In this document: piece by piece, positions 2,425 through 18,126 of the stretch
Layout of the letters: each line of letters starts with the position of its first letter
Numbering within the stretch: the first letter of the stretch is position 1
IMG/VR virus record: IMGVR_UViG_3300045970_000221
Span: 1-21,319 of that record
DNA length: 21,319 nucleotides
Reading direction: 5' to 3' (one strand)
Source: a virus
Made by a program: the position numbers and the translations under genes
The notes under the pieces: generated by a model
What the model was told of the DNA's origin: nothing
The model's database searches: none
Seen by the model: only the letters and a program-made list of their open reading frames with translations

Positions 2425-2799
2425 CTAGATCTTCTTGAGGCGGCTGAGAATGTCGACGACGCTGCCGTTACCAGTCTCATACATCTGGTACAGCTCCATC
2501 AGCTCGTCATGATTGAGGGTGACCCAGTCGAGCACCGTGTCGAGCTCAAATTGCTTGAGGCGCATGTACTTGGGCGTCATCACTTGCGGGGGCGTGCCAA
2601 CTGAGATGACGAAGCAGTCATCATCGGCAAACTTGCCCTTGATGTTGCTGACCTTGATGCGGGGCCCATGCTGACCGCCAACCTTGCCGATCCAGAGGAA
2701 CACTGGTAGGCCAGTATCAGAGACCGGCAAGCCGGCCATCTCATTGATCGGCTGGGCAACAAGGGTTGCCTCATCTATGACAAGTTCGTTCAGCTTCAT
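2425..2799 (-). CDS. Conserved phage protein with HGPRIKVS motif, 124 aa
   Basis: The ATG at 2799 overlaps the stop of the clamp-loader ATPase gene by 4 nt (ATGA), so the two are almost certainly co-translated. The protein has a MKLNELVID leader, then VFLWIGKVGGQHGPRIKVSN, a beta-rich region containing FVISV, and a helical C-terminus ending SRLKKI. The HGPRIKV segment recalls small uncharacterised phage and bacterial proteins, possibly DUF4160-like, but I cannot confirm family membership. No catalytic residues are recognised. In T4 the position directly after gene 44 belongs to gene 62; this protein does not look like gp62. Confidence 0.65.
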   Translation of the reverse strand: MKLNELVIDEATLVAQPINEMAGLPVSDTGLPVFLWIGKVGGQHGPRIKVSNIKGKFADDDCFVISVGTPPQVMTPKYMRLKQFELDTVLDWVTLNHDELMELYQMYETGNGSVVDILSRLKKI

Positions 2800-3713
2800 A
2801 GGGACCCCAGTTCGATGAAAAGTGCGGCAATGTTGATCTCGACGTCAGCCACCTGACCATGGTAGACCTGGTACTCGGCGATCTTCACGACCGCCTGGTC
2901 TTCCTTGCCCTTCAGCTTCTTGACCTTGTGCAGGTTGTCGTAGATGAAACGAAAGATGTCCTGGATCTCCTCGCGGGTAGCCGAGGCACAGACCAGCTTT
3001 CGAGCACCGACGAAGTCGCCCTTCTCGAGGGCCGGTAAAAGTCCCAGCTTCCAGTCGGCACCACCTTCGTTGGCACCAGCCAGCACCAGAGTGCCGGTCG
3101 AGCTGTGACCCTCGAGCACCGTCACCACCCGTCGCATGCTTGGGTAGGAGGCTGCGATCACTGCATCCAGGTCCTCGATGCTGAAGTCGATGTCGTACTT
3201 GTCGAGGATCTCGGCTGCGCGGATCGCCATCTGCCCGACGTCGGGACCGGAGAAGTTGTGGATGTGGAAGCGATCCTGCAGCGGGGGCAGGACCTTGTTG
3301 AGGTAGTTGCAGGTGGCGATGAAGCGACAGGTGCCCGACACCTCCTCGATCAGGGATCGCAGCAGCGCTTGGCCATCTTGGCTGAGGTAGTCGATCTCCT
3401 CCAGCCGGACCACCTTGATGTCGCCGATGGGCATCGTCATCGCGAAGCCCTTCACCTTGTCGCGAAGTGCCTCGATCTTCTCATCCGAGCAGTTGATGCG
3501 CAGGATGTCCATCTCGTCGATGTCACATGACCGACACAGCGCGTAGGACACCGACGTCTTGCCAGTGCCACGTGGGCCGTGGATCAAGAGACTTGGAAAG
3601 TTCTTGTCGGCAACAAACTTGGCGAAGATCTTGGCGGTGCGGTCATCACCGAAGATGACGTCTTCCACGATCTGTGGTCGTGTAGCTTCGACCCAGGGTT
3701 TACGAACTGCCAT
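2796..3713 (-). CDS. 44: Sliding-clamp loader large subunit, gp44-like AAA+ ATPase, 305 aa
   Basis: This is the AAA+ ATPase of the phage DNA-polymerase clamp loader, which uses ATP to open the ring clamp and place it on primed DNA. Visible motifs are Walker A GPRGTGKT (46-53), Walker B-type VVRLEEID (101-108), sensor-1 Asn136 in ATCNY, and Arg148 in LQDRFH at the place of the SRC arginine finger. The length is close to T4 gp44 (319 aa). Two signatures depart from T4: Walker B reads EE rather than DE, and SRC is replaced by DRF. The start is an ATG with AGGAG 6-7 nt upstream. A likely promoter and a small hairpin covering the AGGA lie just upstream. Confidence 0.93.
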   Translation of the reverse strand: MAVRKPWVEATRPQIVEDVIFGDDRTAKIFAKFVADKNFPSLLIHGPRGTGKTSVSYALCRSCDIDEMDILRINCSDEKIEALRDKVKGFAMTMPIGDIKVVRLEEIDYLSQDGQALLRSLIEEVSGTCRFIATCNYLNKVLPPLQDRFHIHNFSGPDVGQMAIRAAEILDKYDIDFSIEDLDAVIAASYPSMRRVVTVLEGHSSTGTLVLAGANEGGADWKLGLLPALEKGDFVGARKLVCASATREEIQDIFRFIYDNLHKVKKLKGKEDQAVVKIAEYQVYHGQVADVEINIAALFIELGSL

Positions 3714-3782: not shown

Positions 3783-5291
3783 TCAGGTGGGCTTTCGCCC
3801 TGTGGTGTAGGCGCCGGTCCCAATGCCAATCTCGTGAGCGTCGCCGTTGACGATGCCCTGAGTGTCCGTGATGGTGTCAGGATCTGCCTTGACGGCGCCG
3901 AGACTGGAGAGGGTGATCTGCTCACGCACAGGTGGTCTGAGGGCGGCGGCGATGGCATCGGCACCAGCCTGCAGGCGGTCCAGCTTGGCCAACTGGACAG
4001 CCTTCCAGTCCTCGAGTGACATGCCAGCGCGTGCTGCTTCGCGCCGCTCATATTGCTCTTGCAGCGCTTCAAGCTCGGCGGCATCTGCCTCAGGCGTTGG
4101 CGAAGGGTAGACCCGAGCCTGCGATGCATCAGGTGTAGATGTCTTGACGATGAAGGGCTTCTCAGGGTCAGGGGTACGTTGAAGCTCTACGAATGGGGTG
4201 GCTTCTGAGGGGGTTCCTGTCTCATGATCCACATCGGTCTGGAGGGGGAAGACGTAGTCGCCAGGCTGGGGTGTTGACCGCACGGGCTCTGGCAGCTGCT
4301 GCACGGGGACGTCTGTGACAGGCTCTGCAGTGGCTGGGATCTCGAGACTGACCAGAGACGGTACAGCTTCCGGCACAGGAATATCAGGGACCACAGGAGG
4401 ATTAGACACAGAAGTAGATTGCTCATGCTGCACCTCGCTTGGTGTTGGTGTCATGTCCCAGATTGCAGCCCACTCAGGAGACTGGACTGGCAAGGGCGGT
4501 TCGTGCATCGCCACGTTTGGCATGGTAGGCTCGGGCTCACTGAAGACCTCTTGAGCGACCTCGATACGACGCTGAAGCTGCTCTTCCTCGAAGTCAGGTT
4601 CTGGCTCTGGCTTCTTGCGCTGGTCCCATAGGAAGTTACCAGCGATGATGAGGAAGACGGCCAGTGGGTCAAACACGAAGATGATCATGAGGATCACCCA
4701 CTTGACAGCCTGCTCGACTGGAATGCCGAACGCCTTGGCGATGAAGAGGATTGGACCAGCCTTGGCCTCGACGCTGATCTGGTGGATCTGCAGATCAGGC
4801 AACTGCTTGTCGATAGCAGTGATCTTGTCCTGCAGATCCTTCTGCTCCTGCTTGAACTGGTTCATGAGCCGGATCCGCTGCATCGCAGAGTACTTCTCCG
4901 GTATAGCGGCAATCTGATCGTCGATCTGCTTCTTGCGCTCTTCGTACTTGGCGATCTGTGTCTTCAGCACATCCACCTTTAGACCGCCCTCCTGCGTCCC
5001 GATCATGGCCTGCTGAAAGGACGCGCTCAGATAGCCAGCGGCGCCCGCCGATGTGATCGTCATCGTGACAGCTGCGGCGATCAGGCCATATGTTCGCATG
5101 ATCTTGCCAAGTCGAGACCAGTGCTTGTAAAGGAGAGAGACCACCACTAACTTGCCCACGTCCAGTGCAACCGCCAGCGCGATGATGATTGGATTGGCGC
5201 CAAACAACGAGCTCAGGCCAATCACAGACACCAGGGTGCCGATGCCTTCAATAGAGAAGGCGGCGAGGAAGGTGAGCAGGGCAAAGATCAT
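3783..5291 (-). CDS. Phage membrane protein, four helices, coiled coil and long cytoplasmic tail, 502 aa
   Basis: This is an integral membrane protein of unknown function. Predicted membrane segments lie at about residues 3-25, 33-55 (containing ALDVGKLVVVSLLYKHW), 66-88 and 196-222. Between the third and fourth lies a charged coiled coil (about 105-167). After the fourth, KK-rich residues and a tail of roughly 275 residues rich in Pro, Glu, Val and Thr follow; by the positive-inside rule the tail should be cytoplasmic. From memory, large T4-like phages carry uncharacterised proteins with this 'LDVGKL-LYxxW' segment and coiled coil. The start is an ATG with AGGAG 6 nt upstream, overlapping the previous stop by 4 nt. 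The cluster carries a late-promoter motif, so late expression is likely. Confidence 0.75.
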   Translation of the reverse strand: MIFALLTFLAAFSIEGIGTLVSVIGLSSLFGANPIIIALAVALDVGKLVVVSLLYKHWSRLGKIMRTYGLIAAAVTMTITSAGAAGYLSASFQQAMIGTQEGGLKVDVLKTQIAKYEERKKQIDDQIAAIPEKYSAMQRIRLMNQFKQEQKDLQDKITAIDKQLPDLQIHQISVEAKAGPILFIAKAFGIPVEQAVKWVILMIIFVFDPLAVFLIIAGNFLWDQRKKPEPEPDFEEEQLQRRIEVAQEVFSEPEPTMPNVAMHEPPLPVQSPEWAAIWDMTPTPSEVQHEQSTSVSNPPVVPDIPVPEAVPSLVSLEIPATAEPVTDVPVQQLPEPVRSTPQPGDYVFPLQTDVDHETGTPSEATPFVELQRTPDPEKPFIVKTSTPDASQARVYPSPTPEADAAELEALQEQYERREAARAGMSLEDWKAVQLAKLDRLQAGADAIAAALRPPVREQITLSSLGAVKADPDTITDTQGIVNGDAHEIGIGTGAYTTGRKPT

Positions 5292-5836
5292 GCTAGCTCC
5301 TCGCTAAACCAAACGATGCCGTCCCTGACAAGAGGGTCGGTGTTTCCCGGTACTCCAGGCCATGACAGGCCTGCAAGAGGATCGCCACCAATTTTGCCCT
5401 CTACGACTAGACGGGCCTCGGTCTTTCGAATGATTACTGGATCATACGGCATAATCTTTCCGCGCAGCTCTATGGAGAGGTTGAACAGTTGCGGATAGCG
5501 AACCATTCTATCAATGAGTGCCGCCCCGTCGGGTGACACCACATCTGCGAAGACAACTTTACCTAGGTGTTGCTTGGCTGCTTGCATCAAGACCAACCCC
5601 AGCCCCAACTTCCTGAAGCCCGGCAGAACGTAAATGGTCTTGACAATGTGACCATCGAGTTCAATGTATCCAGCAAGCTTATCTTCAGCTGACCTTAGAT
5701 AGAACGTCTGCTCTTTACGGAACAGGGTGTAGTCACCCTCAACCTTCGCGATTGCTTTGCCATCGAACCAGGATTGATCCCCCAGATCTTTATCGGGCAT
5801 TGCTGTCGCTGCGAAGATTAGTTCCGAAAGTTTCAT
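5288..5836 (-). CDS. GNAT-like acetyltransferase-fold protein with MKLSEL leader, 182 aa
   Basis: The central segment IVKTIYVLPGFRKLGLGLVLMQAAKQHLG resembles GNAT motif A, the acetyl-CoA-binding region, with beta strand 4 before the loop and a helix after it. The canonical Q/R-x-x-G-x-G/A pyrophosphate loop reads FRKLGLG. The substrate is unknown, and the protein may have lost activity. An upstream in-frame start would add six residues, but the ATG at 5836 is preferred because it overlaps the co-chaperonin stop as ATGA and gives the leader MKLSELIFAATA, similar to two other proteins here. The ribosome site is weak (CAGGCAC), consistent with coupling. The downstream gene overlaps by 4 nt. Confidence 0.65.
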   Translation of the reverse strand: MKLSELIFAATAMPDKDLGDQSWFDGKAIAKVEGDYTLFRKEQTFYLRSAEDKLAGYIELDGHIVKTIYVLPGFRKLGLGLVLMQAAKQHLGKVVFADVVSPDGAALIDRMVRYPQLFNLSIELRGKIMPYDPVIIRKTEARLVVEGKIGGDPLAGLSWPGVPGNTDPLVRDGIVWFSEELA

Positions 5837-6156
5837 AGTGCCTGTGACTGGCACTCGTTGATGTCGTCGGTGATGGCGAGGATCTTTGTGTCATCAGTCT
5901 TCCAGACCTGACCATTTTCCCACTTGCTGCCTTCCATCCACATCATGGCCTCGACGAGGATCAGATCATCTTCCTTGACTTCAGCCAAGGGGCCAGCGGC
6001 CACAACTCGACCCCAACGTGCCACCTTCTGGGCTGACATGGTCGGTGGAATGATGATGCCAGAGGCGCGGGCGCGCTCATGGAAACGGCCCTTTTGGCCG
6101 CCGGTGTCCTCAAGGAACTGGAACATCACATTGTTTCGGAGGGGACGCAGCTTCAT
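5833..6156 (-). CDS. 31: GroES-like co-chaperonin (gp31-type), 107 aa
   Basis: This is a co-chaperonin that caps host GroEL; T4 gp31 is needed to fold the major capsid protein. The N-terminus MKLRPLRNNVMFQFLE matches the first strands of GroES. A long Gly/Arg-rich mobile-loop region (about 17-38, ending in ASGIIIPP) follows, then WGRVVAAGP and KEDDLILVEA, the conserved core strands, and a C-terminal KILAITDDI strand like the end of GroES. At 107 aa it is close to gp31 (111 aa). The start has AAGGA 6 nt upstream and overlaps the previous stop (ATGA). Membership in the GroES fold is well supported; gp31 function is inferred. Confidence 0.82.
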   Translation of the reverse strand: MKLRPLRNNVMFQFLEDTGGQKGRFHERARASGIIIPPTMSAQKVARWGRVVAAGPLAEVKEDDLILVEAMMWMEGSKWENGQVWKTDDTKILAITDDINECQSQAL

Positions 6157-6353
6157 GGTGTTCCTTTAGACTGAATGACCATCCGCAGTGCGGCAGTCAG
6201 CTTCAGTTCGTTGATGGTTGTCTTTTCCTCGTCCGTCAGGTAGTTCCAGGCGTCGGGGGAAATATAGCTTTCAGTGATCGGGACGGTCAAACCCTTCTGC
6301 TGCCGAATACACGGACAGTTGCCGGGTGGGCCCATGCAGGCACAGGCTGCCAT
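6153..6353 (-). CDS. Small cysteine-rich phage protein, 66 aa
   Basis: This unknown protein starts with MAACACMGPPGNCPCIR, a CxC-x6-CxC cluster (C4, C6, C13, C15) that could bind a metal, followed by a mostly helical segment with TDEEKTTINELKLTAALRM. The ATG at 6353 shares a base with the stop of the preceding gene (TAATG), so the two are probably translated together. The next gene, the co-chaperonin, overlaps it by 4 nt. I do not recognise a named family. Confidence 0.65.
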   Translation of the reverse strand: MAACACMGPPGNCPCIRQQKGLTVPITESYISPDAWNYLTDEEKTTINELKLTAALRMVIQSKGTP

Positions 6354-6601
6354 TACTTCTTGGCGATCTGCTTGCCAGTGGCCACAGCGTTGGCTGAGAC
6401 AGCTGCACCTTCGGCAGCGATCTGCAGCATCTCATTGCTGAGATCTGGGGCTACGGTGGTCTTGACACCGTCCTTGACATCGATAGCCGTCTTGCGCTCA
6501 TCGACCTCCTTGGGGGCTGGTGCTGCAGCCAGCTGGGCTTTGATGGCCAGGAGCTCAAAGTCGATGAGCTCACCGCGGGCGCTTCGAATGAAACGAGACA
6601 T
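6353..6601 (-). CDS. Small conserved T4-like phage protein, 82 aa
   Basis: The protein begins MSRFIRSARGELIDFELLAIK and is otherwise Ala- and Lys-rich. Proteins with an 'SRF-R-xRGE-xDFxLL-IK' beginning are, from memory, uncharacterised conserved phage proteins of T4-like genomes; no function is known to me. The ATG at 6601 is chosen over one 12 codons earlier because AGGAG lies 9 nt upstream of it. An exact TATAAATA late-promoter motif lies about 40 nt upstream, so this is the first gene of a probable late cluster that includes the Cys-rich protein, co-chaperonin, GNAT-like protein and membrane protein. Confidence 0.7.
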   Translation of the reverse strand: MSRFIRSARGELIDFELLAIKAQLAAAPAPKEVDERKTAIDVKDGVKTTVAPDLSNEMLQIAAEGAAVSANAVATGKQIAKK

Positions 6602-6641
6602 AGGGATTTTCTCCTGATTGTGTGCGCTATATGGCACGTTG

Positions 6642-6673: not shown

Positions 6674-7228
6674 TCAATCGTGAAAAAATTCGGCGGCTGG
6701 AACCTGAAGTTTGATGCAGTCCACCGAGTGCAGTCCGAGTAGGAAGAGGACATACGAAGCACAGGATGACCCACGACCGACGCCCCAGACCACGTTGTTG
6801 GCTCGGAAGGTGTCGATGACGTAGATGACGGTCTTGACAAACTCGATCATGCCGCGCTGCTTGATCTCATCATACTCTTCCTCCATGCGACAGAGGGCCT
6901 CGTCCTCTTCTTGAACGCTGTAGGCCAGTTCATCCTCACGCTTGATGTAGGCAGCGGCAATGCGCTCCCACAGATCCATGGTCAGGTACTCGTCAGGAAG
7001 CTGCCAGCGGAAGTCCAGGCTGATGGGCTCAGGCTGATCCAGCTTGATCTCGAGCTCCTCTGGAACCTGGGCATTGAACTGCTCAACCTCCCAACCGGTC
7101 TCAGTGACGCGCAGCTGGGCAGGAGAGACGCCGAGCAGCAGACACCGGGCCACCATCTCAGGAGAGATGACAGAGACCCCGTCGAAGCGAAGGACACGGT
7201 CGATGAGGTCCACTGCCAGGCGTTTCAC
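6674..7228 (-). CDS. Stand-alone DNA polymerase III alpha-like fragment, 184 aa
   Basis: Residues 129-183 run collinear with the start of the polymerase region of bacterial DNA polymerase III alpha: a helix IEFVKTVIYVIDTFRANN, then GVGRGSSCASYVLFLLGLHS (149-168), corresponding to the family pattern GxGRGSxxxSLVAYxLGIT. The ORF ends where the catalytic Asp motif (PDFDIDF) would begin in a complete enzyme, and no PHP domain is present, so it cannot be a polymerase alone. The N-terminal 120 residues are acidic and helical and unfamiliar. It starts with GTG overlapping the previous stop (GTGA). A nucleotide- or template-binding role, or interference with the host replicase, are possibilities only. 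Confidence 0.7.
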   Translation of the reverse strand: MKRLAVDLIDRVLRFDGVSVISPEMVARCLLLGVSPAQLRVTETGWEVEQFNAQVPEELEIKLDQPEPISLDFRWQLPDEYLTMDLWERIAAAYIKREDELAYSVQEEDEALCRMEEEYDEIKQRGMIEFVKTVIYVIDTFRANNVVWGVGRGSSCASYVLFLLGLHSVDCIKLQVPAAEFFHD

Positions 7229-7509
7229 TGTTCGGCTGCCTCGATCAGACGTGCAGCGCGTTCAGCTGATGTCAGCCGCTTGACGCCCAACGCGAAGCCG
7301 GCGTACTTCATCAGCACCGTCATCGGCACGTCGGTGAAGGGGTGCTCGCAGTAGAACTGCACGGCGCCCCAGTTGCCAGTCTCGATGAACTTGGCCAGGC
7401 TGGTGGTGTGTGCCGGGTTGGTCGGGTCGAACTGAGCACGGTGCGCGCTGGTGGCACGCAGGGCGGTCGACAGGTTCAGAACGTCGGAGGTATCGGAGAA
7501 GTCGGGCAT
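7225..7509 (-). CDS. Small unknown phage protein, 94 aa
   Basis: This is an intact ORF with AGGA 6 nt before the ATG. The middle contains FIETGNWGAVQFYCEHPFTD, followed by VPMTVLMKYAGFALGVKRL and a helical, Ala/Arg-rich end. I associate this arrangement with uncharacterised phage proteins but cannot name a family or function. It is followed at a 4-nt overlap by the polymerase III alpha-like fragment, so the two may work together or simply share translation. Confidence 0.65.
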   Translation of the reverse strand: MPDFSDTSDVLNLSTALRATSAHRAQFDPTNPAHTTSLAKFIETGNWGAVQFYCEHPFTDVPMTVLMKYAGFALGVKRLTSAERAARLIEAAEQ

Positions 7510-9378: not shown

Positions 9379-11103
9379 TTAGAGCAGTCCGCACATGGTG
9401 TAGCCACCGTTGTTGACCACCGACTTAGTGCCAACGTTGACCCCGTTCTTGAAGAAGATCACGTTGCCGTTGCTGCTGTCGTAGACCATACCGATGATGT
9501 CGCCGGTTGTCCATGTCGGTGCGTTCGGGGTGCCAGAGGATGCATCACCGTAGCCGACCAAGAAGCCGGTGCTAGTGTAGTAGACACCAAAGGGGCCGCC
9601 GGTGCTGGAGTTGGGATCGAAGGGACCAGCGTAGCCTTGAGTGAAATAGCCAACAGCACCAGTACCGGTGAAGGTGCCAGCGGTAAACTCCCATGCCGAG
9701 AAGAAAGTGTCAGTCCCAAGTGACGTCACGCCGATAGCAGTCGGCGTTGTGCTAAAGCCAACACGCGTCAAGGTGATAGTCGTTGGGTCCGTCAGCGTAG
9801 CACCTGTTGGCAGCTGCGTCGCATCAAAGGTATCACTGAAGTTGGTGAATGTGCCGGTGCTGTATGCTGCCTGGTAGTTGCTGAAGTACGTTGAGGCAGT
9901 CCCAGATCTCAGCATGTAGGTGTAGGTAGGGGCCACAACTGCAGCGGCCAAGTATCCAGAGACATCCCAAACGTTGGGCGCAACCTTGACGATGGTAGCC
10001 TTGCCCATCAACTTGTCGATGGTGAGACCATCTGGGCTGTTGATAGTAACGCCACTACCTGGAACGAAGGTGATGTTGCCTGTGCCTGTCTTCGTGAAGA
10101 TAGCTGAGCCACCGGCCGGCATCGGACCTGGATTGAGAGGGCTGAAGTTGTTGTCAAGGTAGGTGTCGGTACCGGTCCAGCTGCTGTCGGGCGGCACGGC
10201 GACGGCGATGTTGGTAGCAGCGCCAAGGCGGTAGTGAGTGTTGTGCTCACGCGCCGAGCCAAAGTTCAGCGAGGTGGTGACGGCGTAGTTGATGGTAACC
10301 AATGGGGCCGGCTTGATGGGACCGAGAGTTGCAGGCACCCAGTTAGTGCCATCCCACTGAAGCATCTGACCAACAGTCGGTGCAGCGGTGATGGTATCAA
10401 CATCAGTAAGAGCGTTAATACTAAATGGACGAACATCAACTGTCATAGTCCCAGGTGCAGCCGCTGTGCCACCACCAGATGGGCTGGCCAGAAGAGTAGC
10501 ACCGAAAGCCACCTTAGAAGTAACCCAGTCAAGTTGCTGACCCAGGAATGGGCCGTAGCCATCAGTAGTCAGTCGATTTTCGTCAACATACTTCTTTGAT
10601 GCTGGATGGTAGTCCGCAGTTGGGGTGTAAACGACAGTGTTAGCGAAGCCGATCTTGCTGACCAACTGTATCTGCAAGCCTGTGACATCAGCGATGGCGT
10701 GTGTATGGCCAACATCTACCTTCGTATCAAGGGTCGTCTGCAGACCTGTGACATCAGCGATGACGTGTGTGTGAACGAGCGGTGCATAGGTGCCGCTGTA
10801 GTCAGGAAGCGCCGGCGCCTGTTTGTAGACATGCATGTCCCAGACACCAGGACTGATATAGGATACACGAACGTATTCGCCATAGGTGATGGGGGCAGTG
10901 CCGTTCAACGAGTTGAGGGTGACGGACGGGGCGGCTACCAGCGTCAGTGAAGCCCACAGGGAAACGTTGACGATCTCAATGTAGGCGCCGGCTGGCCAAG
11001 TCTGCGTCGTGGAGCCAACGAGCACCTGAATGGCATCGGAAGTGGCGCAGTCGAGGCGAACACGCGTGCCATTCTGTGATGACAGGAGGGTGTAGGTGAT
11101 CAT
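9379..11103 (-). CDS. Tail fibre with C-terminal SPRY-like domain, 574 aa
   Basis: This is a structural fibre protein, probably for receptor recognition. The N-terminus (about 1-90) is a beta-rich domain unlike the other two fibres. It is followed by HTHVIADVTGLQ and HTHAIADVTGLQ repeats typical of phage tail fibres, SPTADYHPASKKYVDE, and LTDVDTITAAPTVGQMLQWDGTNW, a 'QxLxWDGTxWxP' element also present in the large fibre. The last 45 residues (TTGDIIGMVYDSSNGNVIFF, then KNGVNVG) match the end of SPRY/B30.2-like domains, known as recognition modules. The start has AAGGA upstream, 38 nt after the previous stop. A strong stem-loop follows. Confidence 0.85.
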   Translation of the reverse strand: MITYTLLSSQNGTRVRLDCATSDAIQVLVGSTTQTWPAGAYIEIVNVSLWASLTLVAAPSVTLNSLNGTAPITYGEYVRVSYISPGVWDMHVYKQAPALPDYSGTYAPLVHTHVIADVTGLQTTLDTKVDVGHTHAIADVTGLQIQLVSKIGFANTVVYTPTADYHPASKKYVDENRLTTDGYGPFLGQQLDWVTSKVAFGATLLASPSGGGTAAAPGTMTVDVRPFSINALTDVDTITAAPTVGQMLQWDGTNWVPATLGPIKPAPLVTINYAVTTSLNFGSAREHNTHYRLGAATNIAVAVPPDSSWTGTDTYLDNNFSPLNPGPMPAGGSAIFTKTGTGNITFVPGSGVTINSPDGLTIDKLMGKATIVKVAPNVWDVSGYLAAAVVAPTYTYMLRSGTASTYFSNYQAAYSTGTFTNFSDTFDATQLPTGATLTDPTTITLTRVGFSTTPTAIGVTSLGTDTFFSAWEFTAGTFTGTGAVGYFTQGYAGPFDPNSSTGGPFGVYYTSTGFLVGYGDASSGTPNAPTWTTGDIIGMVYDSSNGNVIFFKNGVNVGTKSVVNNGGYTMCGLL

Positions 11104-11141
11104 ACTATGTCCTTAGATGGCCGCTGACAGATAGATCATGG

Positions 11142-13121
11142 CTATGCCACCAACAGAATGGTGGATGATGGCAGCGACGGCGTCAACGTAGCATCGATGG
11201 TGAGGGAGTTGGCGACATCGTTGTAGGTGAGGGAGATATTGGTGCCAGCCTGTAGCAAGGCCGCCACTCGGCCATCGACAGCCTCACTGAAGTCGGTAAC
11301 ATCGGCAGCCACATGGGTGTGCACCACAGCGGCCTTGCTGTCGAGGATTGGCTGAAGACCAACGACCTCACCGATGACGTGTGTGTGGCCCAACTGGGAG
11401 TAGCGGCTGTCGTAACCAAGGTAGCCGACCGGCAGATAGACACCGTCGTGGTTGTGGTTAATGATAGCCTTGTCATCAAGAGCAATCTGCAGCCCAGTCA
11501 CATCAGCAATAATGTGGTTGTGCGAGACCTGTGCCTTGCCAGCAAGTGCAAGCACAAGGCCGCTGACACTTGTCAATTGCCAGTTGCTATAGGTAGCATC
11601 TACCTTAGTGCTGACTGCAAGCGTCAGCGCATCCAAGGCGGGCGGAAGATCAGTGATGTCAGTAATTACGTGACTATGCACGCGATCGGCCTTTGCATTG
11701 ATCGCAAGTTGAAGGCTATCTACTGCATTCTGCAGGCTGGTCATCAGGGAAGTAATTGCCTCCTGTAGACCATTGACCGTGCTGATCTCCTGGGTATGGG
11801 CAAATGGCGCGTAACGTGTGTCAAACCCAGTGTAGCCAATTGGAAGGTAAAGCAGATCATGATTGTGACCAACAATCGACTTGGTGTCGAGGGCATCTTG
11901 AAGACCAATGATCGTGCTGATGGCCTGGGTGTGACCAATGAGGGCGCGGGCTGCTACATCTGTCTGAAGAGTTGCTACATCTGCATTCAGCACAATGAGA
12001 TTGGTCACTGCCGAGGAAGGCATGAAACCCGGTGTAGCAGCAGTAGCATTAGGTGCTGATACGGACCACACGCGTTCACCAATCAGGTTTGTGCTAAATG
12101 ATGTGGTGATTGGTGCTACACCACTAACAATGATATCATTCGCATTTGCCTGAAAGATCTGAGGCATTGTCTCAGCATCGATCTGAAAGAGCACTGTCTG
12201 CTTGTTCTTGACAAAGCCTACACGGTAGACAAGCAGTGAATTTGGGCGAACCGTAGTTACTTGGCCGCCAGCATTACAGTAGAGCGGGGCGCCAAGATGT
12301 GCTGACCAGTCCCATTGGTCCCACTGGATCTCACCAGACTGGGTGAGCACACCAAGGTCATTAGGCTGTAGTGGCATCTGCACGATACCGATAGGCGTAC
12401 GTGCAACTGGCAACGATGGATCGCTGGATGCAAGTCCTACGGTGTCTGCACCCGTAAAGTAGACTAAACTAAAGGCTGGGATAGTCTGTGAGGCACGAAC
12501 TGGCACAAAGGCATTTGGCGGAATAGCCAGCACGCCTGACGTGCTTGACGTGGTACGAATGTAGACAGGCGTAGAGGTAGTCAGAAACTCAAAGTTGACT
12601 GCGCGCACTGGGCGCTGCAGCGTATCAACCATGATGTAGCCGCCTTCAGCCTCTGAGGCAAGACCTACCTGTGATCCGCGGGTATTGGCATCAATGTTGG
12701 TAAGAGCAGCATTATGCACGTGTGCGGCAAACACCGCCACCTTTGCTGCCCATTTTGTCCCAGTCCACACCTTCATCGTGGTGTCAGATAGATCAAACCA
12801 ATGCTGGTCAAAGACTGGAGAAACAGGTGCGACGAGGCCATAAACTGGTGCCAGTGCGGTGATCTTGTACTGCACCAGTGCAGTTAGAAGATCAATCTCC
12901 CAATAGATGTAGCACTCACCAGAGATTGGGCCCCAGGCAGCGTTGACATCGCGATCAAAGATCTGCACGTAGTTAGAGCCACCATGGGCAAACGTTACTA
13001 CTGTTGGGTCAGGTGATACATTGAAGTCGATGAAACTTGCAGTAGCAGATGGCACCAAAAACAGCGGAGTAGAACCTGACTTGTAGAAGGAGATGAGGCC
13101 TTGGCGAAATGGGATTTTCAT
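11142..13121 (-). CDS. Tail fibre, paralogue of the large fibre, 659 aa
   Basis: The first 385 or so residues are paralogous to the 1515-aa fibre: MKIPFRQGLISFYKSGSTP against MKIPFRQGIVSCYKVGNTP, then AFAHGG/TFAHGG, YWEIDLLT, QHWFD, TTMKVWTGTKW, FEFLTT/FEFLTS, ANAFVPVRA, GEIQWDQW. This shared part is probably the virion-anchoring domain. The rest is a run of His-rich fibre repeats: GHTQAISTIIGLQ, GHNHDLLYLPIGY, SHVITDITDL, SHNHIIADVTGLQ, NHNHDGVYLPVGY, GHTHVIGEVVGLQ, HTHVAADVTDF. These HxH motifs resemble metal-coordinating repeats of fibre tips. It ends abruptly after DATLTPSLPSSTILLVA, without the long GTVTSV modules. Confidence 0.85.
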   Translation of the reverse strand: MKIPFRQGLISFYKSGSTPLFLVPSATASFIDFNVSPDPTVVTFAHGGSNYVQIFDRDVNAAWGPISGECYIYWEIDLLTALVQYKITALAPVYGLVAPVSPVFDQHWFDLSDTTMKVWTGTKWAAKVAVFAAHVHNAALTNIDANTRGSQVGLASEAEGGYIMVDTLQRPVRAVNFEFLTTSTPVYIRTTSSTSGVLAIPPNAFVPVRASQTIPAFSLVYFTGADTVGLASSDPSLPVARTPIGIVQMPLQPNDLGVLTQSGEIQWDQWDWSAHLGAPLYCNAGGQVTTVRPNSLLVYRVGFVKNKQTVLFQIDAETMPQIFQANANDIIVSGVAPITTSFSTNLIGERVWSVSAPNATAATPGFMPSSAVTNLIVLNADVATLQTDVAARALIGHTQAISTIIGLQDALDTKSIVGHNHDLLYLPIGYTGFDTRYAPFAHTQEISTVNGLQEAITSLMTSLQNAVDSLQLAINAKADRVHSHVITDITDLPPALDALTLAVSTKVDATYSNWQLTSVSGLVLALAGKAQVSHNHIIADVTGLQIALDDKAIINHNHDGVYLPVGYLGYDSRYSQLGHTHVIGEVVGLQPILDSKAAVVHTHVAADVTDFSEAVDGRVAALLQAGTNISLTYNDVANSLTIDATLTPSLPSSTILLVA

Positions 13122-13139
13122 TAGTTCAGCCTATTTGTG

Positions 13140-13571
13140 CTATGGTGCAGTAGGCCAGTTGATAGTCCAAGGATACCCACCTTGGTTAGGCACATTGCGA
13201 AGGGCCTGGCGATATGCTACCCATAGTGCAGCGGTGGGGGCATCGAGTGCTACGTCTGCAAGTTGTGTCCAGTCGCATTCACGCAGCATACTATCGCGCG
13301 TTGCACGGGCAGTTATGATCTGATCTGTAGTAAGTGTATCCTGTTCTGCCTGCGTTAGTGCTTCAATCTGCCACACCTGCTGACCATTGACAGGGGTAAT
13401 CTCAATAGCCCGCTCAAACCAGGCAGTGATTGGTTCTGCAGAGGTGTTGTAGGCGACAAAGTCACCGACAACTGTGGTGCCGACAGGGATGGAGCAGTGC
13501 GGCATTGCCTGCCGCACATCGTCCAGGGTTAGACGAAGCTGATTGGTGACAGTGTTATGGTAGAAGATCAT
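13140..13571 (-). CDS. Tail-fibre assembly chaperone, 143 aa
   Basis: The C-terminal half, from RDSMLRECDWTQLADVALD through WVAYRQALRNVPNQ to WPTAP, is the diagnostic signature of the phage tail assembly chaperone domain (Phage_tail_APC): R-x-x-x-L-x-x-x-D-W-T, W-x-x-Y-R-Q-x-L-R and a final Pro-rich WP. Such proteins help fibres fold and trimerise. The position directly after the 1515-aa fibre and before its paralogue is as expected, and it could serve both. The ATG at 13571 is 7 nt past the fibre stop; no strong ribosome site is seen, so expression may rely on coupling. Confidence 0.85.
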   Translation of the reverse strand: MIFYHNTVTNQLRLTLDDVRQAMPHCSIPVGTTVVGDFVAYNTSAEPITAWFERAIEITPVNGQQVWQIEALTQAEQDTLTTDQIITARATRDSMLRECDWTQLADVALDAPTAALWVAYRQALRNVPNQGGYPWTINWPTAP

Positions 13572-13578
13572 GATCTAT

Positions 13579-16500
13579 TTAGGCGCTGTAGTTGAGCTGC
13601 GATGCACCATGCCAGGATGTGCCGCCGTTATGTGTCGAGAAGATCAAGAGGTCGACGTTGGCGGTCAACGTTGGTGCAGTGCCGCCGGCCCATTTGACAG
13701 CAGTTGGCCAGGTCTGCACACCCACTGCCCCGTTCTGAAGTGCAAGTACAAACAGGAAGGCTTTACCTGAAACAGGCGGCGATGAGAATGTCCATGTCAG
13801 CGCGGAGGTAGCGGTCTTGGTGAAGTAGGTGCCAAGACCACAGTCAACAGCAGAGCCAGCAACTGTAATCGCTGTCGTCGAAACTGAGCCAGTTAGATCG
13901 ACAGTGCCAGTCGTAGCCAAGCTGGCTACGTTCAGCAGACCCGTGGAAGAGGTGTAGGTAAAGCTTGTCGAGCCACCCATTACGCCTAAATTGTTGAACT
14001 GCACCTGCTTGTCTGCACCAGCAGCAGGTGCAGTTAGTGTCACCCAGGATGCAGCTGAACCGTTCGTTCCCAGCACCTTGCCCGTCTGACCCGTTTGAGC
14101 TGGCAGGAATGTCGTTAGCGCCTGAGCAGGACTTGCAGTTCCGGTGCCGCCGTTTGCTACGCTGAGTGTACCACTCAGTGAGAACGTTCCGACAGTGGTG
14201 ACTGGTCCGCCAGAGATCGTAAGACCTGTTGTACCGGGATCGAATGAAACTGAAGTGACAGTGCCTACTGATGCCGTAGACCAAGAGACGTTAGTGCCAT
14301 CAGTAGTCAGCGCCTTGCCGCCATTCGTCGCCTGTGGCGGCAGCAGATTGTTAAGAGCTGTAACACGGTCGCTGGCATTGGTGCCGCCGTTGGAAAGACC
14401 GAGGGTACCACTTAGAACAATTGTGCCAGCAGTAGTGATCGGTCCACCGGTAAATCTGAGACCGGTGGTGCTACCGTCAATCTCCACGGATGTTACTGAA
14501 CCGGCGGATGAAGTAACCCACTTAACAAATGTTCCATCAGTGCCAAGGATCTTTCCGGCACTGGCAGTTTGCACTGGCATCAAGTTATTGATAGCCGTAA
14601 TTGGATCTGCTGCACCAGTGCCGCCGCCGGTAATCGCTACCTTGCCACCAATGTTAAATGTTCCAGTAGCCGTAACAGGGCCACCAGTTACGGTCAGACC
14701 AATGGTTGTGTCAATGGCCATATCAACAGAAGTTACTGTGCCATTGATGCTCTTCCAGACAGGGAAAGTACCATCGGTGCTAAGGATTTTGTCAGCGTTG
14801 CCTGTCTGCGCTGGCAGCATTAGGTTAAGTGCTGTCTGAAGATCAGTAACACCCGTACCACCGTTCAACGGGCCGAGAACACCTGACAGGCCAATAGTGC
14901 CTGTAGTGGTGATCTTCTTCAACAGAGGATTAGGAGGGTCGAAGTCAGTGCCACCCGTGATGTAGAGACCGACGGAAGTATCCTTCGAAATATCGATCTC
15001 AGTTACGGTACCTGTGCCTGTTCCGGTAAAGATTGGATTATCCCATGCAACAGATGTGCCATTGGACATGAGGAACTTGCCGACAGCAGTAGGACCTTGA
15101 GCAGGCAGCTCAGCCACTGGCGGAAGTGACGTGCCAGTACCGCCGTTTTCAATCGCAAGTACACCCGCAACCGTGAAGGTGCCAGCCTGCGTGATTGGCC
15201 CGCCGGTGAAGGTGAGACCCGTGGTTCCAGGATTGATGGCAACTGAGGTGACAGTGCCACCACCGGCAGGAGTTTGCCAAGATGCGGTAGTACCATCTGA
15301 CATCAGGAACTTGCCACCAGTACCGGGGGTATCAGGCACCAGCGGATCGATAGAGATCACTGGCTGTGTCTGGATTGGCAGCGGCAGCGCCCAGTATGCG
15401 TAGATGCCATCAGAGGTAAGCACCTTGCCAATGGTGCCCGCATCGGTTAGCGACACCCGGTTAACCTGGGCGGGCAGTAGATTGGTTAGACCGATTTGTG
15501 GTGTAGTGCCACCTGTGCCACCATTTAGAGTGCTTAGCGTACCAGAAAGGGTAAGGCTACCGGTAGTTATGATGCGCTTTGCCAGTGGTTGTGGGGGATT
15601 GAACTCTTCACCACCGACGATGTTTAGACCCGACGTTGGGTTCTTGTTTATGGTAATCTCAGTTACCGTACCAAGCACGTTCTGCCAGGTAGGGGCTGCA
15701 GTACCACCAGAAGTCAGAACATAACCAGATGGACCTTGTGCCACCGTGTTAAGCGTGCCATCAGTGTTGGTGATGGTCAACAGATTTGCAAACGTATCCT
15801 GTGTCAAGACATTTGATGAGATGACATTTCCGGCAACAGTGAGGGCTGGATTTCCTGAAACGTATGCAATACCTGGTAGCGTTGTCCAGGTGGTAGTGAG
15901 GCCGTTGGAAACCAGCGCCTGCCCTGGAAGGGCGAGCTGCGGCTGGAGTATGTTCGCAATAGCTTCAATTGAAGTGGCACCACCTGTACCACCGGCAGTT
16001 ACTGGGATAATGCCATCGGCCTTTAGAATAATGTCTGGAGAGCTGCCCGAGTCGAGTGAGAAGGTTAGACCTACCAGGCCACCGCCGATAGCGACGCTGG
16101 TAACAGTACCGCCAGACACTACAGGATTTTCCCAAGTTGGGGAAAATCCTGGACCGTGCGATGTTAGCACCTTGCCTGAAGCGCCTTCAGGAATACCAGC
16201 GAAACGTGGACCATCGCTGATCTGCACCAAGTTGTAGGTGGTAGTACTACCGCCAGAAGGGCCCGCACCACCACTTGAAGTTCCACCAGTTCCGTTTGGC
16301 GTCCACTTGGTTCCGTTCCATGCAAGTGTTTGTCCAGATGTGACACCAGCAACGTCAACGTCGCCGAGATCAGAAAGCTGCAACGTGCCGCCAGGACCAG
16401 AGCCGCCACCTGCACCCGTAGAAGAGATAGTCAGTGTGTTGAGAAGAGGATCAACAACCAGCGTGATGTTCGTACCAGCCTTGATGATTGTTGGCAGAAT

Positions 16501-18126
16501 AGCACCAACACCTGTAGCAAAGTCGGTAATGTCAGCCACAACGTGCGTGTGAATGAGGTCTGCTTTACCAGCCAACACAGGTGTAAGGATCGCATTGACA
16601 CCCACGATAAAATCAGTGATGTCAGCTACAACGTGCGTGTGAATAACATCTGCTTTGCCGGCAAGTGCAGGAGTGAGAATAGCATTGACACCAGCGGTGA
16701 AGTCGGTAATGTCAGCAACTACATGGGTATGGATTGTGTTTGCCTTGGTCGCAAGTGCTGCAGTCAAAGCATCAAGGGCTGCTTGTAGTCCCGTTACATC
16801 AGCGATAATGTGCGTATGAACGAGTGGGGCAAACATACCACCTCCACCCCCACCACCACCTCCACCACCTCCAGTGATTGCATCCAGAGCTGCTTGTAGA
16901 CCAATCACATCACCGATAGCGTGGGTGTGGCCGATCAGACTGCGAAGCAGAATATCCGACTGTGCTTGAGCAAGCTGTAGTGCTGTGTTGTCGATCACGG
17001 TTACCTGTGCACCCGTGATGTAGCCGCTTGATGTGGGTGTCGACGCTGGTAGATCGATCGTCCAGATAGGATCATTCGTAACGCTGAATGTCTTTGTTGC
17101 AGTGAGTGGAGTATTACCAGCTACAATGACATCACCAGCACCTGCCTGTGGCACCTGCGGGGCAGTCTCAGCATCAACGCGAAAGAGAATGGTATTCGTA
17201 TTCTTGATGGTACCAAGACGATATGCAAGGCTGCCAAGTGGGCGAGTAGTAGTGATCTCACCAAAGTTGCCACAGTAAACTGGCTGACCAAGGTGACCTG
17301 CCCAGTTCCACTGGTCCCATTGGATCTCACCGGCCTGTGTCACATTGCCGAGGTCGCCAGGTGCCATCGTCTCTTGAACCACACCGATTGGCGTACGTGG
17401 TGGGCTGACTGTCGGGTTGCTCGATGCCAGGCTAACGGTGTCAGCGCCTGAGAAGTAGACGATGCTGAAGGCAGGGATTGTCTCAGCCGCACGCACTGGC
17501 ACAAAGGCGTTGGGAGCAACAGCCAAAACGCCAGAGGTGCCAGATGTTGTCTTGATACGGACTGGGCTGGTAGAGGTCAGAAACTCGAAGTTACTCTGGC
17601 GTAGTGGGCGCAGCTGGGGATCCAGCATGATGAAGCCAGGCTCAGAAGGTGTAGTGAGGCCTACTTGGGTAGCACCAACTGGATATGTCCTCAGTTGGCT
17701 CACGGCGCCGTTCGGGACCCAACCAGCAAACACGGCAACCTTGGTCTGCCACTTCGTGCCCGTCCAGACCTTCATCGTGGTGTTGGTCGTGTCGAACCAG
17801 TGTTGATCTACGGTAGGTGTCGTTGGTTCTGAACCAACGATTGGTGGGAGGGTGGTGACCTTGTAAAGGACGTCAGATGTAAGAAGGTCAATCTCCCAGT
17901 AGAGATAGCTGGTCACGTTAGGAGCGACTGGCCCCCAAGCGCCATTGACATCAGTGTCGAATACGCTCAGATAATCAGAGCCACCATGAGCAAATGCTAC
18001 TGCTGTTGGTGTTGGTGAGACTACGAAGTCAACGCGGTTGGATGAACCAGTAGATGGCAGCAGGAACTGTGGAGTGTTGCCTACCTTGTAGCAGGAAACA
18101 ATGCCTTGGCGGAATGGGATCTTCAT
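13579..18126 (-). CDS. Large repeat-rich tail fibre / adhesin, 1515 aa
   Basis: This is a very long structural fibre. The N-terminal part of about 385 residues is shared with the 659-aa fibre. A HxH repeat region follows (GHTHAIGDVIGLQ, then HTHIIADVTGLQ and three HTHVVADITDF units), interrupted by a run of 12 glycines at about residue 420. After LQLSDLGDVDVAGVTSGQTL come seven modules (about residues 672-1365), each with GTVTSV or a close variant, GGP, GTxxLSGxL, NGGTG, ALNNLLPxQ and GKxLxTDGTxxxW; single modules are about 80-90 residues and the first two are longer. A distinct C-terminal domain (about 1366-1515) ends in TLTANVDLLIFSTHNGGTSW and is the likely receptor-binding tip. Similar modules occur in other phage adhesins. 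Confidence 0.88.
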   Translation of the reverse strand: MKIPFRQGIVSCYKVGNTPQFLLPSTGSSNRVDFVVSPTPTAVAFAHGGSDYLSVFDTDVNGAWGPVAPNVTSYLYWEIDLLTSDVLYKVTTLPPIVGSEPTTPTVDQHWFDTTNTTMKVWTGTKWQTKVAVFAGWVPNGAVSQLRTYPVGATQVGLTTPSEPGFIMLDPQLRPLRQSNFEFLTSTSPVRIKTTSGTSGVLAVAPNAFVPVRAAETIPAFSIVYFSGADTVSLASSNPTVSPPRTPIGVVQETMAPGDLGNVTQAGEIQWDQWNWAGHLGQPVYCGNFGEITTTRPLGSLAYRLGTIKNTNTILFRVDAETAPQVPQAGAGDVIVAGNTPLTATKTFSVTNDPIWTIDLPASTPTSSGYITGAQVTVIDNTALQLAQAQSDILLRSLIGHTHAIGDVIGLQAALDAITGGGGGGGGGGGGMFAPLVHTHIIADVTGLQAALDALTAALATKANTIHTHVVADITDFTAGVNAILTPALAGKADVIHTHVVADITDFIVGVNAILTPVLAGKADLIHTHVVADITDFATGVGAILPTIIKAGTNITLVVDPLLNTLTISSTGAGGGSGPGGTLQLSDLGDVDVAGVTSGQTLAWNGTKWTPNGTGGTSSGGAGPSGGSTTTYNLVQISDGPRFAGIPEGASGKVLTSHGPGFSPTWENPVVSGGTVTSVAIGGGLVGLTFSLDSGSSPDIILKADGIIPVTAGGTGGATSIEAIANILQPQLALPGQALVSNGLTTTWTTLPGIAYVSGNPALTVAGNVISSNVLTQDTFANLLTITNTDGTLNTVAQGPSGYVLTSGGTAAPTWQNVLGTVTEITINKNPTSGLNIVGGEEFNPPQPLAKRIITTGSLTLSGTLSTLNGGTGGTTPQIGLTNLLPAQVNRVSLTDAGTIGKVLTSDGIYAYWALPLPIQTQPVISIDPLVPDTPGTGGKFLMSDGTTASWQTPAGGGTVTSVAINPGTTGLTFTGGPITQAGTFTVAGVLAIENGGTGTSLPPVAELPAQGPTAVGKFLMSNGTSVAWDNPIFTGTGTGTVTEIDISKDTSVGLYITGGTDFDPPNPLLKKITTTGTIGLSGVLGPLNGGTGVTDLQTALNLMLPAQTGNADKILSTDGTFPVWKSINGTVTSVDMAIDTTIGLTVTGGPVTATGTFNIGGKVAITGGGTGAADPITAINNLMPVQTASAGKILGTDGTFVKWVTSSAGSVTSVEIDGSTTGLRFTGGPITTAGTIVLSGTLGLSNGGTNASDRVTALNNLLPPQATNGGKALTTDGTNVSWSTASVGTVTSVSFDPGTTGLTISGGPVTTVGTFSLSGTLSVANGGTGTASPAQALTTFLPAQTGQTGKVLGTNGSAASWVTLTAPAAGADKQVQFNNLGVMGGSTSFTYTSSTGLLNVASLATTGTVDLTGSVSTTAITVAGSAVDCGLGTYFTKTATSALTWTFSSPPVSGKAFLFVLALQNGAVGVQTWPTAVKWAGGTAPTLTANVDLLIFSTHNGGTSWHGASQLNYSA
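14030..16110 (-). repeat. Seven tandem GTVTSV fibre modules
   Basis: Coding repeats start on the minus strand near 16110, 15672, 15258, 15012, 14742, 14502 and 14266. Spacing is about 240-270 nt for the later units and 410-440 nt for the first two, which contain insertions. The copies have diverged at the DNA level but keep the protein pattern. Confidence 0.8.
16122..16151 (-). repeat. Perfect 12-bp inverted repeat inside the fibre gene
   Basis: The arms 16122-16133 and 16140-16151 are exact reverse complements with a 6-nt spacer, and encode part of GFSPTWENP. They lie just upstream of the first GTVTSV module in the direction of transcription. A hairpin this long is unusual inside a coding region. 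Confidence 0.7.
16510..16815 (-). repeat. Tandem 90-nt fibre repeats (HTHVVADITDF)
   Basis: Three units with period 90 nt carry GTCAGC-type landmarks at 16531, 16621 and 16711, plus a fourth diverged unit offset by 87 nt. Each encodes 29-30 residues of the form AGKADVIHTHVVADITDF plus a variable GVNAILTPAL segment. High DNA similarity among the first three suggests recent duplication. Confidence 0.75.
16837..16872 (-). repeat. Polyglycine codon tract (12 Gly) in the fibre gene
   Basis: On the + strand this is a CCACC/CCTCC-type low-complexity tract; read on the minus strand it gives twelve consecutive GGN codons between DAIT and MFAPLVHTH. It is a flexible linker in the fibre and a likely site of slippage and length variation. 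The ends are placed to within a few bases. Confidence 0.8.

Follow-up and report, generated by a model that had tools for sequence, protein, structure and literature searches.

A Pol III alpha-like protein in a viral DNA record as the probable N-terminal half of a split miniature family C polymerase

What use does a virus have for a piece of a bacterial replicase that ends just before the catalytic centre? The question is raised by a gene at 6674–7228, on the minus strand of IMG/VR virus record IMGVR_UViG_3300045970_000221 (positions 1 to 21,319; this whole stretch of 21,319 nucleotides is referred to as the window). The gene is intact, has a GTG start and encodes a 184-residue protein. An earlier reading made without database searches (the sequence-only reading) had noticed that its C-terminal part resembles the alpha subunit of bacterial replicative DNA polymerase III (Pol III alpha) and had suggested that the fragment might bind the host clamp loader, tau or DnaE partners, or nucleotides. 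Our analysis points elsewhere: with a probability of roughly 0.87, the protein is the N-terminal half (N-half) of a split miniature Pol III alpha-type (family C) polymerase, assembling with a C-terminal half (C-half) that is also encoded by the phage. That the window protein belongs to the split minimal Pol III family is very likely.

The window protein and its resemblance to Pol III alpha

The proposed kinship with Pol III alpha was borne out by profile searches. Residues 94–182 of the N-half matched positions 15–94 of Pfam PF07733, the Pol III alpha NTPase domain (E = 1.4e-9), residues 10–182 matched phrog_11127, labelled 'DNA polymerase' (E = 6.8e-29), and a profile of 88 non-redundant relatives matched residues 285–394 of E. 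coli Pol III alpha (E = 2e-8). The 88-relative profile was needed, as a single-sequence search of the PDB with the window protein gave a weak match (E = 0.13). The collinearity described in the sequence-only reading holds, although the related stretch covers about 90–100 residues rather than the 55 originally counted. The last residues of the protein (...EFFHD) correspond in the alignment to ...LFERFLN in the E. coli subunit, directly before the PDxDxDF motif, and the protein does indeed stop ahead of the catalytic aspartates.

Seven residues are invariant across the 88 N-halves: R114, E118, G149, G151, R152, G153 and S154. The alignment of these relatives places the GVGRGSS motif at residues 149–155 (6764–6784, minus strand). 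In cellular Pol III alpha the GxGRGS loop contacts the triphosphate of the incoming deoxynucleoside triphosphate.

AlphaFold2 modelled the N-half with a predicted local distance difference test score (pLDDT) of 92.6 and a predicted template modelling score (pTM) of 0.65; for this model and for that of the C-half described below, the alignments were built from the window and fetched related loci only. The first 15 Foldseek matches of the model in the PDB were all family C polymerases (Pol III alpha; best E = 0.013, probability 0.99). Residues 1–72, which align across the family, are predicted to be folded, with block pLDDT values mostly of 82–97 and 76 in the worst block. The protein has the extra small N-terminal domain attributed to it, and that domain is mildly acidic (net charge of about −6 by our own count).

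A second phage gene beginning at the break

The missing catalytic part was found as a separate gene in the relatives of the window. When the genomes of 11 isolate phages were searched with the Pol III finger family, weak matches appeared in short open reading frames of 8 of them, and these frames start at the very motif where the window protein stops (MDIDIDL... in RAS14, ...RTDIDIDF... in 121Q and ...IPDIDIDF... in Atu_ph07). The frames belong to phrog_11778, a family present in 11/11 isolate genomes with E-values of 1e-51 to 1e-109. The idea of a lone non-catalytic piece in need of a host partner does not fit with the finding that each of these isolates has another gene of its own whose product opens with DIDID, and no evidence pointed towards host tau or DnaE as a binding partner.

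The C-half is 187–215 residues long. Downstream of DxDID it carries K-x-D-x-L, which holds the third catalytic aspartate, followed by LADxxALIRP and F/Y-x-K-S/P-H-A-x-x-Y, and 14 positions are invariant in 55 C-halves (D2, D4, D6, H34, G37, K66, D68, W94, P121, A132, R135, P136, H170 and Y174). Its profile is collinear with residues 461–522 (including DIDTDF), 607–714 and 809–823 of Taq alpha, and covers the K-x-D and KSHAAAY motifs. The AlphaFold2 model of the C-half (pLDDT 93.7, pTM 0.84) gave family C polymerases (Pol III alpha) as all of its first 14 Foldseek matches in the PDB (best E = 4e-4, probability 1.00). By the best fold matches of each half, the Pol III alpha palm fold is present; the Foldseek E-values are modest, as would be expected of fragments of a large protein. 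The C-half gene is interrupted in contig L088 (4995–5558) and shortened in L175 (6089–6463); these are single contigs and may reflect sequencing or assembly errors.

The two families are complementary at one point. The N-half ends 0–10 residues (median 3) past its last conserved phenylalanine, F181, and the C-half has a median of 4 residues ahead of the second aspartate of DxDID, which shows that the split is fixed. No intein sequence was found on either side of the split point. A duplication origin of the pair was considered and rejected, since comparison of the N-half and C-half profiles revealed no mutual homology.

In bacterial Pol III alpha (DnaE/PolC, PF07733 and PF17657) the active-site motifs of palm and fingers follow one another as they do in the phage pair. 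There they lie in one chain of about 1100–1400 residues, which also has a PHP domain, a thumb, complete fingers and HhH and OB domains; the phage pair lacks these and amounts to about 375 residues divided between two chains. Neither half has an equivalent of the PHP domain, the thumb or much of the fingers, and Pfam finds only a partial PF07733 and a partial PF17657.

We propose that the N-half would contribute the palm segment bearing the GxGRGS loop, and that the separate protein of about 190 residues, which starts at the split with (D)xDID, would add reduced fingers and the third catalytic aspartate (K-x-D-x-L). Most likely they would join non-covalently into one palm, and it is likely that they act as an assembled nucleotidyl transferase, whose substrate would be clamp-loaded or damaged DNA and which would work alongside the family B replicase of the phage. 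It is plausible that the pair is a template-directed polymerase serving in repair, gap filling or one-strand synthesis.

Linkage, distribution and co-variation of the two halves

As the sequence-only reading had described, the N-half gene lies in a packed run; the genes listed here are all on the minus strand. A small upstream gene (7225–7509), with a homologue near the N-half in the closest contigs too, overlaps the GTG start by four bases, and a 94-residue gene that is conserved in related loci (6353–6637) stands immediately downstream. Further along are a constant neighbour, a GroES/Cpn10-like gene (5833–6156; Cpn10 E = 9e-4, slightly short of the Pfam cut-off, with a chaperonin annotation in relatives), the gp44-type large subunit of the clamp loader (2796–3713; phrog_168, E = 3.9e-65), a probable gp62-like small subunit (1704–2150; phrog_225, E = 0.0023, following the large subunit in relatives), a C2H2-like gene (413–1159; phrog_11058, function unassigned) and a partial small open reading frame at the window edge (1–153). 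Elsewhere in the window, searches by open reading frame and by family revealed neither a complete DnaE nor a leftover of its catalytic part.

Contig L073, the closest relative at 55% identity, has the N-half (4238–4807) and the C-half (9920–10492) within 11 kb, and eight further contigs of the window's wider clade (L170–L175, L181 and L191) also carry both, so that the check for a downstream catalytic part encoded as a split gene was positive in these nine as well as in the 11 isolates. In all nine the halves lie 5–6 kb apart, either side of the clamp-loader genes, in the order N-half, GroES-like, membrane protein, clamp loader, gp62-like, C2H2-like and C-half. The window matches this order as far as the C2H2-like gene and the small gene that follows, and then stops. 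In L171 two small genes are inserted at this point, ahead of the C-half, an arrangement that resembles the partial frame at 1–153, which occupies the position where relatives have, or nearly reach, the catalytic-half gene. Given this synteny and the L171 insertion, the catalytic half of the window's phage is predicted to sit just beyond base 1. The C2H2-like gene precedes the C-half gene in many relatives, among them 121Q (halves gp56 and gp16), XaC1 and Munch, in which the halves are far apart.

By tblastn, the N-half was found in the jumbo phages XacN1, RAS14, Munch, 121Q/PBECO4, MIJ3/PA5oct, Phosso, SCTP-2, Atu_ph07, XaC1 and Vibrio 2.275.O, among others, and in many of these it is followed by the GroES-like gene and the gp44-type clamp loader. 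Its relatives reach hundreds of metagenomic contigs and the 141-kb phage Slicko01, in which no clamp loader was detected near the N-half. Among the 60 matches listed for each half, 58 accessions were common to both. RAS14 and Slicko01 fall outside the 58, yet other searches found both halves in each; the other records outside are CM1 and the 109-kb PP728206, which has the C-half only among the matches listed.

The presence of an N-half beside a T4-type clamp loader had seemed out of place, since a phage with such a loader would be expected to use a family B polymerase. The clamp loader and the N-half do coexist in the window, and the expected family B polymerase is present in 11/11 isolate phages, none of which has a full-length DnaE above the Pfam cut-off. 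In LR588166.1 (L006, about 124889–128666) the family B polymerase matches fall in two open frames, which agrees with the published description of polymerase B of phage MIJ3 as split and intein-bearing (PMC6892783).

Both halves are under purifying selection: for pairs with dS below 1.5, the median ratio of nonsynonymous to synonymous substitution rates (dN/dS, Nei-Gojobori) was 0.15 for the N-half and 0.055 for the C-half. Across 18 phages the tree distances of the two halves correlate (r = 0.91), and a partial correlation of 0.56 is left once the clamp-loader background is removed (Mantel p = 0.0005). This co-variation supports a joint function, short of proving contact.

Competing explanations and known split polymerases

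Several observations weigh against the proposed split enzyme. The C-half (phrog_11778) is not in the 21-kb window itself. Several metagenomic contigs have one half; in the largest, L201 (347504 bases), an N-half (6894–7430) occurs together with a family B polymerase, and no C-half was detected. L201 possibly keeps the N-half on its own, or it is incomplete. Conversely, marine contigs of up to 122 kb have a C-half without an N-half of the phrog_11127 kind. Since contigs with one half may be incomplete, they call for caution and do not amount to a refutation. Finally, with the thumb, the PHP domain and much of the fingers absent, including the GADxLRRAM region, processive template-directed synthesis is not assured.

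Marine C-half contigs (L163–L168; for example L164, 94–1785, minus strand) in some cases also carry an unsplit family C polymerase of 561–563 residues that lacks PHP and has complete motifs (PF07733, E = 1e-41; PF17657, E = 6e-15). It adjoins a gene resembling endonuclease III and has a 38% identical homologue in a 484-kb uncultured phage. A GRGS match in six marine contigs was considered as a fused form of the pair and rejected, as it belongs to this separate compact polymerase.

In cellular Pol III alpha, duplex and template are held by the thumb, the PHP domain and the fingers. The absence of the first two and of a large part of the third gives weight to the strongest alternative, namely that the halves assemble into a distributive or template-independent nucleotidyl transferase engaged in end tailing, support of repair ligation or nucleotide-based regulation. 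The phages already own a family B replicase, and 121Q also its own primase and helicase. However, the Pol III alpha finger residues A-x-x-RP and K-S-H-A-x-x-Y are conserved along with the palm, and the neighbourhood of the pair consists of the clamp loader and replication genes; we consider this alternative unlikely. More improbable still is that the N-half works alone as a non-catalytic factor, for instance as a ligand of host replisome proteins or of nucleotides. Such a role would suit L201 and other contigs in which an N-half was detected and a C-half was not, and it would suit the first 70 or so residues, a small additional domain without a recognised family; the GxGRGS loop is nevertheless invariant, essentially every isolate genome with the N-half has the catalytic half, and the trees of the two halves co-vary beyond the clamp-loader background. 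That the N-half is what decay has left of a captured DnaE, as its span of only about 100 of roughly 1100 Pol III alpha residues might suggest, is refuted at the level of the family and can practically be dismissed, since the protein is intact in 88 relatives with conserved ends and seven invariant residues, its dN/dS is low, and the mere 36 bases before the next conserved gene hold no frameshifted DnaE remainder, in agreement with the earlier judgement that this is not simple decay.

Returning to the split polymerase, the form is not new. In cyanobacteria, Pol III alpha is likewise produced from two genes, in that case with the Ssp/Npu split intein, and the products are spliced post-translationally to the full-length enzyme; the phage halves resemble this system in the use of two genes and differ in having no intein sequence at the break. 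A split minimal Pol III alpha has already been described in group 2.2 jumbo phages by Iyer et al. 2021 (Viruses 13:63, PMC7824862), who also proposed reconstitution of one enzyme from the two halves, and the window protein is thus a further member of a described kind of enzyme. With group 2.2 the window shares the GxGRGS N-half ending before the catalytic aspartate motif and the RFC/gp44-type clamp loader. Every one of the 11 isolate relatives, as well as L073, has the separate C-half with three catalytic aspartates and finger motifs, and the window ends before its expected site; the family B polymerase is likewise a feature of the isolate relatives, the window being only 21 kb long. Unlike the genes of Iyer et al., which were called distantly located, the halves in the window's clade lie in one gene run. 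To that description our analysis adds the window protein with its divergent clade, the short distance between the halves around the clamp-loader genes in that clade, the active-site invariance on larger alignments, and the one-half exceptions. Literature searches turned up no later experiments on the split enzyme.

Two other features of the window stand apart from the pair. A GNAT acetyltransferase-like gene (5288–5854, minus strand) overlaps the GroES-like gene within the replication gene run and has no homologue among the related loci compared for gene order. The stretch 9379–18126 (minus strand) encodes three large proteins in which units of the type HTHxIxDVTGLQxALD recur many times; they are probably tail fibre or virion proteins, with weak matches to phrog_18179 and tail families.

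The direct families of the two halves, phrog_11127 and phrog_11778, are both labelled 'DNA polymerase' in a library that is silent on their being complementary, and many records call the halves 'DNA polymerase' or 'hypothetical protein' without linking the two. In the window's clade, the presence of both halves in one short gene run offers a convenient operon-like pair for cloning and testing. A working two-chain polymerase of about 375 residues would mark out how little of the bacterial replicase fold is needed for catalysis, and it would show bacterial-type and archaeo-eukaryotic-type polymerases at work together in one phage. A stronger version, which we offer tentatively and with the odds somewhat against it, is that the halves form an obligate heterodimer, the smallest of the family C polymerases, that works on phage clamp-loaded DNA beside the family B replicase and whose split form may be primitive and not degenerate. 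Were this so, one phage replisome would use two unrelated polymerase folds.
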